This document shows positions 27,887 to 38,406 of a stretch of DNA of 64,000 nucleotides, in pieces. The position numbers were made by a program, and so were the translations under genes. Source of the DNA: Myxococcota bacterium (lineage in GTDB: Bacteria; Myxococcota_A; UBA9160; UBA6930); assembly GCA_028285625.1 (NCBI GenBank), contig JANQOX010000005.1, positions 789,773 through 853,772 on the forward strand, in the 5' to 3' direction. The notes beneath the pieces are model-generated. The model was not told the origin of the DNA. It did no database searches and was given only the letters and a program-made list of their open reading frames with translations. Position 1 is the stretch's first letter. The number at the start of each line of letters is the position of its first letter.

Positions 27887-28864
27887 CTAGTCGATCTGCT
27901 TCGACGAGCGGTGGAAGCGCCGCACGATGTCGGGATCGGGATGGAGCGATGTGGCCGCCTCGCCCTTCGACTCGTAGGGAAGAAGGCTGAGCACGTAGCG
28001 CATGCTCTCGAGGCGGGCCTTCTTCTTGCTGTTCGCGCGCACCATGATCCACGGGCTGAAGGTGGTATGCGTGCGGCTGAACATCTCCTGCTTGTAGTGC
28101 GTGTAGAGGTCCCAGTGCTCCTGGGCCTTCTCGTCCACGGGGCTGATCTTCCACTGCTTGAGCGGGTTGTGCCGCCGCGACTCGAAGCGTTTGGCCTGCT
28201 CCTCCTTGGAGATCGAGAACCAGAACTTGATCAGCTCGACCCCGTCCTCGTAGAGCATGTGCTCGAACTCGGGAACCTGCTGCAGGAACTGGCTGTACTG
28301 CGAGTCGTTGCAGAATCCCATCACGGGCTCCACCACGGCGCGGTTGTACCAGGATCGGTCGAAGAAGCAGATCTCGCCGGGATTCGGCAGGGCCGAGATG
28401 TAGCGCTGGAAGTACCACTGCCCCTGCTGCACCTCGGTGGGTTTCGGCAAGGCGATGACGCGCGCGGTGCGAGGGTTCAGGTGTTCGATGAAGCGGCGGA
28501 TCGTCCCACCTTTGCCAGCGGCGTCTCGCCCCTCGAAGATGATCGCCACGCGGCGCCCCTCGAGCTGGATGGTCCGCTGGAGCCTCACCAGTTCGACCTG
28601 GAGCCTCTCGAGTTCCGCCTCGTACCGGAGCGTGTACAGCGCCTTCTTGGTACCGAAGCCCTTCTGGCGGAGAAGCTGAACCAGCCCGCGGTTGCTGTTG
28701 ATCTGCGCGAGGTCGTGCTCGGTCAACCGGGAGGGCAGCTCGGGCGGCTCCTCGGCGTCTGCGATGGGCGGCCGCTGCTCGACCTCCGCGAGCGCGGCCT
28801 CCTCTGCCGCTTCGGCGTCCCTCTCGTCTTCCCCGGCGTGGGGAACCTGCTGTGCTTCGGCCAA
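27887..28864 (-). CDS. ppk2: polyphosphate kinase 2 (PPK2) family protein
   Basis: VAIIFEGRDAAGKGGTIRRFIEHLNPRTARVIALPKPTEVQQGQWYFQRYISALPNPGEICFFDRSWYNRAVVEPVMGF. Confidence 0.96.
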   Translation of the reverse strand: MAEAQQVPHAGEDERDAEAAEEAALAEVEQRPPIADAEEPPELPSRLTEHDLAQINSNRGLVQLLRQKGFGTKKALYTLRYEAELERLQVELVRLQRTIQLEGRRVAIIFEGRDAAGKGGTIRRFIEHLNPRTARVIALPKPTEVQQGQWYFQRYISALPNPGEICFFDRSWYNRAVVEPVMGFCNDSQYSQFLQQVPEFEHMLYEDGVELIKFWFSISKEEQAKRFESRRHNPLKQWKISPVDEKAQEHWDLYTHYKQEMFSRTHTTFSPWIMVRANSKKKARLESMRYVLSLLPYESKGEAATSLHPDPDIVRRFHRSSKQID

Positions 28865-34695: not shown

Positions 34696-35214
34696 TCAAC
34701 TGCGAGGGGCCAGCTCGTAGAGCCAGAGGTAGCCCGAGGACACCGCCTCCGGCGGAATCTCCGAGCCGCCCACATACTTGCGGCTGAGTTCCGCGAGGAG
34801 CGGTGCGACCACGGGTCCCCCTTCGACACGGACGAGCTCGCGTTCGTAGAGCGCGTCACCGATCCGGAGGAGGATGCGCGGGTCCTTCTCGGCCTCGTGG
34901 GGCCACTGCTTCCAGATCTTGCCCCACCAGGTCGTCATGTAGCCCGACGGGATGTAGGCCTTGCCCTCGTGTTCGAGGATCCATGTGGTCCGCGAGCGCG
35001 CCGGGTCGAGCAGCTGGAACTCGACCTCCTGCAGGTCGTGGACGAAGGACCAATCGGGCTCCGGTCCACTGACGAGTTCACCCGTCCGGAAGGGCCCACC
35101 CGCCACGATGGCCAGCGGCCCGTCCGCGAAACGTGCGCCCAGGAGCAGTCCTGCGATGAGCAGGACGAGCAGGGCGGCGAGGCCGCCGCCGACGCGCAGT
35201 GCCTTCTTCAACAT
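34696..35214 (-). CDS. hypothetical membrane-anchored protein
   Basis: 172 aa; N-terminal TM LKKALRVGGGLAALLVLLIAGLLLGARFA; starts 10 bp after the redoxin gene stop. Confidence 0.72.
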   Translation of the reverse strand: MLKKALRVGGGLAALLVLLIAGLLLGARFADGPLAIVAGGPFRTGELVSGPEPDWSFVHDLQEVEFQLLDPARSRTTWILEHEGKAYIPSGYMTTWWGKIWKQWPHEAEKDPRILLRIGDALYERELVRVEGGPVVAPLLAELSRKYVGGSEIPPEAVSSGYLWLYELAPRS

Positions 35215-35224
35215 CGACGACTCC

Positions 35225-35983
35225 TCAGTCGAGGTGCTCCTCGAGTGCCGCAAGCACGACCTGGGGATCCGTGCGCCGCTGATAGTTGTCGGAGACGTCC
35301 ATCCACAGCACGGTGCCGTCGGCGCCCACGAGCAAGGAGGTCGGCACCGGCAGCGCCTCGATCTCGTCCCTGGGGTTGCCCGAGTGAGCGCCCTGATTGC
35401 GCAGCCCGAACGCGTCGGTCACCGCGAGCGTACGGTCCGAGAGCATGATCGCCTGCAGTCCGTGGACGCGTCGGCCCTCTCGGATTTCCTCGGGACGGTC
35501 GGTGCTGACCGTGAGCACCTGCACGCCCCGTTCGTCGAACTCGGCCCGGAGTTCTTCCCATCGCCGCAACTCGGCGACACAGTAGGGTCACCAGTGGGCT
35601 CGGAAGAACTTGATGAGGACGGGTTTGCCGAGCAGGACCGCCGAGTCGAAGATCTCTCCTCGCTCGTCCGGTGCGCTGAAGGCTGGAACCTTGTCGCCCA
35701 CCTGAATCGCGTTCGGCGGCAGGATCTGCTCGCTGATGCTGACGGTGAAGGGCAGGAACAGGCCCACGGCGATGCCCGGGAGCGCCGCGATGCGGCCGAT
35801 CCACCCCGCCTTCACCAGTGCTGCCATGCCGAGAGCTGCGGCGCCGAGCCAGACGCCCACGAAGAGCGTCCGGTTCTCGGGGAGGTCCACGGCCCGGGCC
35901 TGGCTGAACCACAGCATGGCGCAGCCGATGGCGATGACGGGCGCGGCCACACCGATCCCGTTCCATAGCTTCTTGGAGTTCAT
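35225..35983 (-). CDS. candidate selenoprotein: membrane-anchored AhpC/TSA-type redoxin with in-frame UGA (Sec132) in an HW-U-PYC motif
   Basis: Continuous reading frame through TGA at 35588..35590: MNSKKLWNGIGVAAPVIAIGCAMLWFSQ...AFSAPDERGEIFDSAVLLGKPVLIKFFRAHW-U-PYCVAELRRWEELRAEFDERGVQVLTVSTDRPEEI...LPVPTSLLVGADGTVLWMDVSDN...EEHLD. Both halves carry redoxin-fold sequence in the same frame; the ORF track splits them into the tail of 35588..37228 and 35225..35569. Confidence 0.85.
35559..35579 (-). promoter_or_regulatory. candidate bacterial SECIS (bSECIS) hairpin
   Basis: Coding strand UGUCGCCG-AGUUG-CGGCGAUG: 8 pairs (6 Watson-Crick, 2 wobble), 5-nt loop with G at position 2, loop begins 16 nt after the UGA. 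Confidence 0.65.
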
Positions 35984-36036: not shown

Positions 36037-38406
36037 TCAGACACCCCGGCTGCGGCCCGCTTCGCGAAGTACCTCGAGCGTCGCGTCGAGGGTGAGCAGC
36101 TCGGGGAGGAGCTCCGGCGCCCTGTCGGGGTCGGCGGGGTAGACGACGTACATCGGGACGCCCGCGCGGCCCCACTCTGCGAGCTCGAGGGTGATCGCGT
36201 CGTCCCGTGTCGTCCAGTCGGCCTTGAACGACGCATAGCCCCACTTCTCGAGCTCGTCGCGCACGGCGCCCTGCGAGAGCACCACGGCTTCGTTCACCTT
36301 GCAGGTGATGCACCAGTCGGCCGTGAACTCGACGAAGACGGGGCGACCGGCGGCTCGCTCGCGAGCCACCGCAGTGGGATCGAAGGCCTTCCACGGGATG
36401 CCGTCGGGCGAAGTGGCGAGGACCCCGGGCGTGTCGCCGCCGGGCGGGGGATCGGAGGGCGCAACCGCGAGGGCGCCGACGACGAAGGCGAGGGTCACGG
36501 CGGTCAGCCCTCGTGCGAGCCCGGTGCGCGCCGTCGCCTGGGCGAGTCCGAGGGCCCAAACGAGGAGCGCGACGACGAGGAGGTACGCGATGAGCAGCGA
36601 CTGCGCGTCGACGCCAAGTGCGCGCCCTGCGACCCACGCCAGCCAGACCACGGTCGCCAGCAGCGCAAAGGCGAGAGCCTGTCGAACGCGCAGCATCCAG
36701 GGGCCGGGGCGCGGGACGAACCGCGCCCAGCCGGGGACGAGGGCCACGAGCACGAAGGGAGCAGCGAGCCCGACGCCGATGGCGGTGAACACGCCGAAGA
36801 TCACCAGGCCAGAGCTCGCAAAGGCGAACCCGACGGCCGTCCCGAGGAAGGGTGCCGTGCACGGCGTCGCCAGCGCGACGGCGAGCGTGCCCTCGAAGAA
36901 GCTGCGCGACGGGTGGGAGGGGCCGGCCGAGTGTCCGAGGTCGGGACCCGAGGGTTGGAGCGTGATCTCGAACGCACCGAAGAGGTTCAGCGCGAACACG
37001 ACCAGGATCGTGCAGATCGCAGCCAGGAAGATCGGGTCCTGAAGCTGGAATCCCCAGCCGACCGCGGAGCCCGCGGCGCGCAGTGCGACGACGACGGCGG
37101 CGAGCGCCCACATCGAAGCCACCACGCCCGCGAGATAGGCCAGGCCGTGCCGTACGACCTGCTCGCGCTCGGCCTGGGCGAGGTCGGTGATCGCGAAGAT
37201 CTTGATCGCGAGGACCGGAAGCACGCATGGCATGAGGTTGAGGATCAGCCCTCCGAGGAGCGCGAGCATCAGGGCGAGGGCGAGCGTGGGGGTGGCCGGC
37301 CTCGCGCCCGACGAACCCGCACGCTCCTCGTCGTCGGGGGCCGAGGGGAGGGCGGCGATCACTTCGAAGGCGGCCGAAGAACCGCCCTTCGGATCCACGG
37401 CGATCGGCACGTCCACTACGAGGTGCGCCGGGCCGTCGGCTCGCGCGAGCGGAACCACACCGCGCAGGCGCTGCCCTGCGAGTTGCGACTCGTTCTCGAA
37501 GGCATGCGCGCTCAGGACGAGGGAGAAGCCGCGCCCCGAGTCGGTTGCAGCGGTCGGTGCATGCGAGAGGCCGAGTGCGGAGAGGCGCAGGTCGGACCGC
37601 TCCGGGATGAAGGCGTCACTCGCATCGGTGGCGTCGAGCGTCCAAGGACGGCAGTCCCGACCTCGCTCGTGGCACGAAGTGATCTCCAGAACGAGCGCGA
37701 AGTCGTCCCCCGCCGAGGCCGCATCCCGAGAGGCGCGCGCTACGACGGATGCTCCGAGCGCCTCGGGCGTTCGAGGAAGACGCGAAGCGGCCAGCTCGAA
37801 CCGATCGCGAATCGGAGGCGCCGCGGGAGCGTGCGTCTCTCCCACCGGGATCGAGCTGGCGAGCTGGATGCGCCCGGGGATGCACTCGATCAGACAGGCG
37901 ACGAAGTCGACGTCCACCTCGAGGCTCCATGAACCCGTCGCGGCCTTCGCGACGACGGCCTGCTGGGCCAGCAAGACGTCGCCCTCGTACCCGAAGGTCG
38001 TCAACAGCCCTTCGGCCTCACGGAACACTCGAGGAGCCGGCCACCGAATGGGGCCGATCTCGCTCCCGGGCGCGCGCCACGTCAGCTCGGTGGCCGCACC
38101 GGAGTCGCCGGGATGCTTCCAGTACACGTGCCAGCCCGGCTCGAGTTCCAGCAGCACGCCGATCCGAACGGAGTCGCCCGGGGCAACCCGGGCCGCGTCG
38201 ACCAACAGTTCGGCACGGACCCGTGCGTCGCTCCCGCCGAGCGCGGTCTCGCCACGCGGGCCAGGTGCCGCGAGTGCCGAGGGAGCGCTCAGGACGAGCA
38301 GCCCGAGCATGGCCATGCCGATCATGGCTCCCCGCCGCGTCGAGCGGCGCCGTCGGCGGTAGACGGGTGCCGATCCAGGCGATGTGGCGGCGGTTTCATG
38401 GGGCAT
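36037..38406 (-). CDS. dsbD: thiol:disulfide interchange protein DsbD/ScsB-like
   Basis: LMLALLGGLILNLMPCVLPVLAIKIF, ALATPCTAPFLGTAVGFAF (TM Cys pair) and C-terminal thioredoxin motif VFVEFTADWCITCKVNE. Confidence 0.95.
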   Translation of the reverse strand: MPHETAATSPGSAPVYRRRRRSTRRGAMIGMAMLGLLVLSAPSALAAPGPRGETALGGSDARVRAELLVDAARVAPGDSVRIGVLLELEPGWHVYWKHPGDSGAATELTWRAPGSEIGPIRWPAPRVFREAEGLLTTFGYEGDVLLAQQAVVAKAATGSWSLEVDVDFVACLIECIPGRIQLASSIPVGETHAPAAPPIRDRFELAASRLPRTPEALGASVVARASRDAASAGDDFALVLEITSCHERGRDCRPWTLDATDASDAFIPERSDLRLSALGLSHAPTAATDSGRGFSLVLSAHAFENESQLAGQRLRGVVPLARADGPAHLVVDVPIAVDPKGGSSAAFEVIAALPSAPDDEERAGSSGARPATPTLALALMLALLGGLILNLMPCVLPVLAIKIFAITDLAQAEREQVVRHGLAYLAGVVASMWALAAVVVALRAAGSAVGWGFQLQDPIFLAAICTILVVFALNLFGAFEITLQPSGPDLGHSAGPSHPSRSFFEGTLAVALATPCTAPFLGTAVGFAFASSGLVIFGVFTAIGVGLAAPFVLVALVPGWARFVPRPGPWMLRVRQALAFALLATVVWLAWVAGRALGVDAQSLLIAYLLVVALLVWALGLAQATARTGLARGLTAVTLAFVVGALAVAPSDPPPGGDTPGVLATSPDGIPWKAFDPTAVARERAAGRPVFVEFTADWCITCKVNEAVVLSQGAVRDELEKWGYASFKADWTTRDDAITLELAEWGRAGVPMYVVYPADPDRAPELLPELLTLDATLEVLREAGRSRGV

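Follow-up and report, generated by a model that had tools for sequence, protein, structure and literature searches.

The 64,000-nucleotide stretch of Myxococcota DNA analysed here (the window) carries, on its minus strand, a gene whose product is, by sequence comparison, a genuine selenoprotein: a membrane-anchored variant of the Prx-like/redoxin UxxC kind already known. The in-frame UGA at codon 132 is almost certainly read as selenocysteine (Sec) by the genome's own SelA, SelB, SelD and tRNA-Sec, directed by an RNA hairpin immediately 3′ of the codon. The gene and its parts lie as follows.

35225–35983, minus strand: selenoprotein gene, 252 aa with Sec132; ATG start, TGA stop at 35225–35227
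35588–35590, minus strand: in-frame UGA codon for Sec132, motif HW-U-PYC; TGA in 60 of 60 close homologs
35579–35581, minus strand: Cys135, which completes the UxxC pair; conserved in 81 of 82 aligned family members
35303–35701, minus strand: redoxin (AhpC-TSA) domain, residues 95–227, from Pfam; thioredoxin-like strand/helix order in the predicted model
35342–35344, minus strand: Pro214, at the cis-Pro position (Arg in peroxiredoxins); Pro in 82 of 82 family members
35735–35959, minus strand: membrane anchor of three hydrophobic segments, residues 9–27, 39–57 and 65–83, from hydrophobicity peaks

The reading frame across the TGA

Codon 132 of the minus-strand frame is TGA, in the context FFRAHW-U-PYC, and the next 120 codons are open up to the terminal TGA. 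One Pfam AhpC-TSA/Redoxin domain runs across the codon (residues 95–227; 87 bits, E = 1e-24). The re-read frame and this domain agree with the preliminary description, which had placed a TGA at codon 132 inside an open redoxin frame, as part of a UxxC motif (Sec132 and Cys135) and behind three N-terminal transmembrane helices that coincide with the hydrophobicity peaks. Its expectation that ordinary annotation would mis-split the gene also proved correct: open reading frame (ORF) calling with table 11 yields an N-terminal piece ending at 35588 and a 114-aa C-terminal piece beginning with a TTG at 35569. Compared with locus L026, the post-TGA codons have 7 changes at first, 6 at second and 37 at third positions, a pattern of purifying selection on the sequence after the TGA.

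Selenocysteine decoding

The window's genome encodes a tRNA-Sec (68 bits, anticodon TCA) together with selA, selB and selD, each above its curated cut-off. A search of 98 related genomes returned 60 matches at E ≤ 2e-35, spread over 48 genomes, and every one of the 60 contains exactly one internal stop, a TGA at the aligned codon. selA was found in 47 of these 48 genomes, the exception (G001) being 85% complete. The distant homologs L092, L093 and L105 have Cys at the Sec position, and L093 comes from a 99%-complete genome that lacks selA. Together with the covarying hairpin described below, the machinery and the 60 TGA homologs uphold the earlier claim that the gene encodes a selenoprotein. 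Three of the checks proposed along with that claim were positive: tRNA-Sec, selA, selB and selD are present in the source genome, homologs extend across the TGA with either TGA (60 close homologs) or Cys (some distant ones), and a hairpin just 3′ of the UGA fits the bacterial SECIS model.

An in-frame stop, taken alone, speaks for a broken gene or for a sequencing error at the TGA that would leave two unrelated fragments, but the probability of either is negligible: both are refuted by the same TGA in 60 homologs, by selection on the part 3′ of it and by the covarying SECIS element. The occurrence of the same TGA 60 times in 48 genomes excludes a read error, and because it is present in 60 of 60 close homologs and is followed by codons under purifying selection, it did not arise by chance. 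Decoding of the UGA as Trp or Gly was likewise ruled out by the Cys residues of the distant homologs, the presence of tRNA-Sec and the single internal TGA in each close homolog. Because UGA decoding in general competes with termination, it could also be supposed that UGA132 mainly terminates and that the 131-residue membrane piece is a regulated product too, which would make the codon a selenium-dependent switch between a short and a full form; the N-terminal part does hold residues conserved in the family alignment (W25, V32 and R38). We consider such a switch very improbable, as there is no sign here of a separate function for the short piece and divergence from L026 is faster in the N-terminal part (29 amino acid changes) than in the C-terminal part (9). 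On sequence grounds, the Sec assignment could hardly be firmer.

A conserved and covarying bSECIS hairpin

35560–35578, minus strand: bSECIS hairpin GUCGCCG-AGUUG-CGGCGAU; 7-bp stem and a 5-nt loop beginning 16 nt past the UGA

Published limits for bacterial SECIS (bSECIS) elements are a loop of 3–9 nt, a stem of 4–16 bp, a G in the first two loop positions, a distance of 16–37 nt from the UGA and at most −7.5 kcal/mol (PMC13188914). The window hairpin lies within them, with a 5-nt loop, 7–8 bp, a loop start of AG (G at position 2), a distance of 16 nt and −10.1 kcal/mol. Because 11% of all TGAs in the GC-rich window satisfy the model by chance, a passing hairpin is weak evidence by itself and conservation carries the argument; when the 51 nt from the TGA were folded as a single sequence, the z-score was only −0.47, so that thermodynamics alone proves nothing, whereas conservation and covariation do. 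Synonymous sites in the element are nearly frozen (Val GTC 59/59, Glu GAG 61/61, Arg CGG 58/58, Arg CGA 59/60 and Leu TTR 60/61), and the effective codon number is 1.18 at the SECIS codons, compared with 2.16 for 61 conserved codons elsewhere. In two stem pairs both partners have changed with pairing preserved (U-A, G-C or C-G at one; C-G or U-A at the other), and this covariation exceeds that of all 500 shuffles and of every slid control. The hairpin was looked for in the anchored Cys homologs L092, L093 and L105 and is absent from all three. An Rfam search of the window gave no match, so no Rfam RNA family marks the hairpin.

L105 (G372:C30) is nested among Sec homologs in the tree and looks like a Sec-to-Cys reversal. 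Related families with a UPFC motif have hairpins of their own, whose stems and loops differ from those of the window family. One such sister family (L112–L115, L118 and L120), also with three hydrophobic segments, has the SECIS UCGAGCUG-GUC-CAGCUCGA or close to it, with the loop 21 nt past the UGA.

Thiol:disulfide oxidoreductase or peroxidase

Peroxiredoxins are diagnosed by an Arg where thioredoxin-like proteins have a cis-Pro (PMC2757866). In alignments made with a profile of 43 family members, ResA (62 bits) and peroxiredoxins of the bacterioferritin comigratory protein kind (65 bits) scored about equally. Sec132 aligns with the first, nucleophilic Cys of the thioredoxin/ResA CxxC and with the Thr/Ser of the peroxiredoxin TxxC, Cys135 aligns with the peroxidatic Cys, and Pro214, invariant in the family, aligns with the ResA cis-Pro. 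Of the marks of a catalytic peroxiredoxin, the TxxC motif has Sec at its Thr position and Cys135 at its peroxidatic Cys, and the conserved Arg is replaced by Pro214; the CxxC-type motif and cis-Pro of ResA/TlpA/CcmG-like proteins are found as U132-P-Y-C135 and Pro214. The location of Sec132 on the first Cys of CxxC, with Pro214 in place of the peroxiredoxin Arg, points to a disulfide reductase or exchange enzyme instead of a classical peroxidase, and the protein is fairly likely to be better read as a thiol:disulfide oxidoreductase. The preliminary description had assigned Sec to the first, 'peroxidatic/redox' Cys; the first Cys of CxxC stands, and 'peroxidatic' has to be dropped, since Cys135 occupies that position and Pro214 replaces the Arg.

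No NCBIfam model reached its cut-off with the window protein, every score being far below. The best match was a thiol peroxidase model (59 bits versus a cut-off of 140); ResA scored 40 bits (cut-off 170), DsbE 19 (123) and TlpA 20 (230), and the selenoprotein models PrxU 23 (270), SelL-related NF040769 26.8 (120) and WAxxUGC NF041054 29.5 (300). A structure model, whose quality was limited by an input of the window protein and two related loci (pLDDT 64), has helices at residues 3–32, 38–58 and 61–80, a thioredoxin-like order of strands and helices, and a helix that starts at residue 133, directly after Sec132. Foldseek searches with this model of modest quality found peroxiredoxins and ResA equally well, and the neighbours were mostly peroxiredoxins.

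These neighbours would suit a membrane-tethered selenoperoxidase of the peroxiredoxin clan, in which Sec132 or Cys135 attacks peroxides and DsbD or thioredoxin is the reductant, as would the Pfam AhpC-TSA and Redoxin matches in 43 of 43 members scanned (both peroxiredoxin-type families) and the conservation of Arg128 and Arg237 in the family alignment. The arrangement would also have a precedent in the Caulobacter ScsB-TlpA-PprX pathway, where a DsbD-like transporter feeds envelope redoxins, a peroxiredoxin among them, in peroxide defence (PMC5403849). We nevertheless regard a selenoperoxidase as rather unlikely, given that Sec lies off the peroxidatic position and replaces the Thr of TxxC, that an invariant Pro replaces the peroxiredoxin Arg and that ResA scores as well as the peroxiredoxins.

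Membrane anchor and topology

The three-helix anchor had initially been described as an uncommon architecture. Within the lineage, three N-terminal hydrophobic segments are present in 71 of the 80 homologs that are long enough, and such a predicted anchor is normal for the window family. Topology was predicted by the positive-inside rule (charge counts) alone. The charge bias puts the redoxin domain outside in all 11 members of the window clade (17- and 19-residue segments) and inside in 40 of 44 core members outside that clade. With 21-residue segments and raw K+R counts, three window-clade members are non-supporting (two ties and one reversed); otherwise the bias holds at three lengths. The outside-biased core genes, one tie included, form exactly one clade of 17, which also appears in the tree of the redoxin domain only (support 0.99). 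Both kinds of orientation occur in eight genomes, including that of the window (the window gene and C12:521197, 52% identical); one of the eight is counted through L036, a partial gene whose placement is by sequence only.

By these charge counts, the redoxin domain of the window clade is quite likely to be on the periplasmic face. Were it to face the cytoplasm instead, it would act on cytoplasmic or membrane disulfides or hand DsbD electrons from inside, and the dsbD linkage described below would not reflect periplasmic supply; the cytoplasmic bias of 40 of the 44 other core members is in keeping with this arrangement, but the reverse bias in 11 of 11 window-clade members makes it improbable. 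The anchor charge bias changes direction a single time in the family, so that paralogs of the same cell may be oriented towards different sides of the membrane. Tentatively, the family may have inverted in the membrane: an ancestral three-helix Sec redoxin would have been cytoplasmic, one clade would have flipped its anchor charges to face the periplasm and then paired with dsbD, and several genomes would have kept both forms. If so, matching selenoenzymes would operate on both sides of one membrane. The family lends itself to testing topology inversion of membrane proteins within an enzyme family.

Linkage to dsbD and proposed mechanism

36037–38406, minus strand: dsbD-family gene (DsbD_N, DsbD_TM and C-terminal Trx domain), 53 nt upstream; likely electron donor
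34696–35214, minus strand: 172-aa protein with one N-terminal hydrophobic segment, directly downstream of the selenoprotein gene; no Pfam or NCBIfam match

The window dsbD is full length, and each of its three redox modules has a Cys pair. dsbD lies directly upstream in 9 of the 12 close relatives that could be assessed; these nine genomes represent 7 genera and 3 families, and the rest of the neighbourhood changes among them; in the close relatives G059, G001 and G016, which have enough sequence, dsbD is not upstream. The direct linkage in 9 of 12 suggests a DsbD-fed periplasmic enzyme, and DsbD is somewhat more probable than not to be the electron donor of the selenoprotein. Support for the dsbD clade is 0.95 in the full-length tree and only 0.35 with the redoxin domain alone; the linkage is therefore stated here as gene order, with no claim that it was gained once. 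The neighbour clusters also contained spurious six-frame ORFs, and the genes identified in them are limited to dsbD, recognized by search, and selB, serS and nuoN, recognized by eye.

Taken as a whole, the protein is plausibly best explained, with function and membrane face drawn from the comparisons above, as a Sec-containing membrane-tethered reductase of the ResA/TlpA/CcmG type that is re-reduced by DsbD. The three N-terminal helices would tether the redoxin domain to the inner membrane, in the window clade on its periplasmic face. The selenol of Sec132 would attack disulfides of the substrate (or other oxidised thiols), Cys135 would resolve the selenyl-sulfide, and the oxidised U-C pair would be re-reduced by the co-encoded DsbD carrying electrons from cytoplasmic thioredoxin. 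Such a selenoprotein would link selenium to the DsbD envelope-reducing pathway.

The 172-aa downstream gene is a possible operon member; it was not found beside the homologs and was seen only in the window's genome. A polyphosphate kinase 2-like gene (GRDAAGKGGTIRRFIEHLNPR) was recognized by eye only at 27887–28864 of the window, minus strand. In one genus, from another branch of the family, the family genes L070, L071, L072, L077 and L078 lie tail-to-tail with selB, and in three of the five a seryl-tRNA synthetase gene lies beyond it, both identified by eye from their translations; nuoN-like genes, again by eye, are directly upstream of L071 and L072.

Comparison with known systems and distribution

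The ResA/TlpA/CcmG (DsbE) oxidoreductases have a membrane tether and a DsbD/CcdA-type donor. The window protein has a predicted tether and a likely donor of these kinds, and shares with them a CxxC-type motif (here UxxC) at a helix start and a PT(S/T) cis-Pro motif, but it has Sec for Cys and three helices versus one, and scores under every NCBIfam cut-off. PrxU, the bacterial Sec peroxiredoxin (TxxU), has the same clan and domain, with Sec at the opposite end of the motif from that in the window protein. The SelL-related NF040769 and ResA-like WAxxUGC NF041054 families are also Sec redoxins (NCBI curated list), of which the window protein is not a member.

Known UxxC redoxins include the Prx-like thiol:disulfide oxidoreductase (PF00578, UxxC/UxxU) and the Redoxin family selenoprotein (PF08534, UxxC) in Table 1 of PMC13188914, and Prx-like 1 and Prx-like 3 selenoproteins are known from the GOS survey (PMC2398784). 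The AhpC-TSA/Redoxin domain, the UxxC motif and a bacterial SECIS directly 3′ of the UGA are common to these and the window family, which adds the three-helix anchor, the dsbD linkage and the charge reversal, a distinction drawn from the papers' texts (PMC13188914, PMC2398784). The text of neither paper mentions a transmembrane form, and no description of the membrane-anchored variant was found in the papers that we examined. In the Caulobacter ScsB-TlpA-PprX system, no selenocysteine is reported and the redoxin roles are split over separate proteins (PMC5403849).

Close homologs occur in two named records, a Myxococcota MAG (L023, 85%) and a Deltaproteobacteria MAG (L024, 79%). A search of 379 genomes of the phylum gave matches at E ≤ 1e-25 in 56, of which 48 belong to the same class as the window, and TGA was present in all but one among the matches listed. 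With no NCBIfam model at cut-off and a gene that ORF calling splits, a selenoenzyme family that is widespread in these uncultured bacteria could be overlooked. The family also gives a clean data set for SECIS covariation.

Other traces of Sec redoxins are present in the window's genome. L057 (G000:C18:341777-341857, minus strand), a 27-codon remnant of a family gene that reads DRGEVFDSARLRGNPVLIKFFRAR and then TAG, is approximately 80% identical to residues 104–129 and represents a decayed copy, interrupted at the active site. L056 (G000:C16:116518-116976) is a Sec redoxin with the motif VFYRSAVW-U-PPCW, apparently without the three-helix anchor, and is accompanied by a separate SECIS-like hairpin, GCAGCU-CGGUG-AGCUGC. 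L061 (G000:C12:475299-475580), a peroxiredoxin with an in-frame TGA in a TPT-U motif (TxxU type), is apparently a Sec peroxiredoxin.
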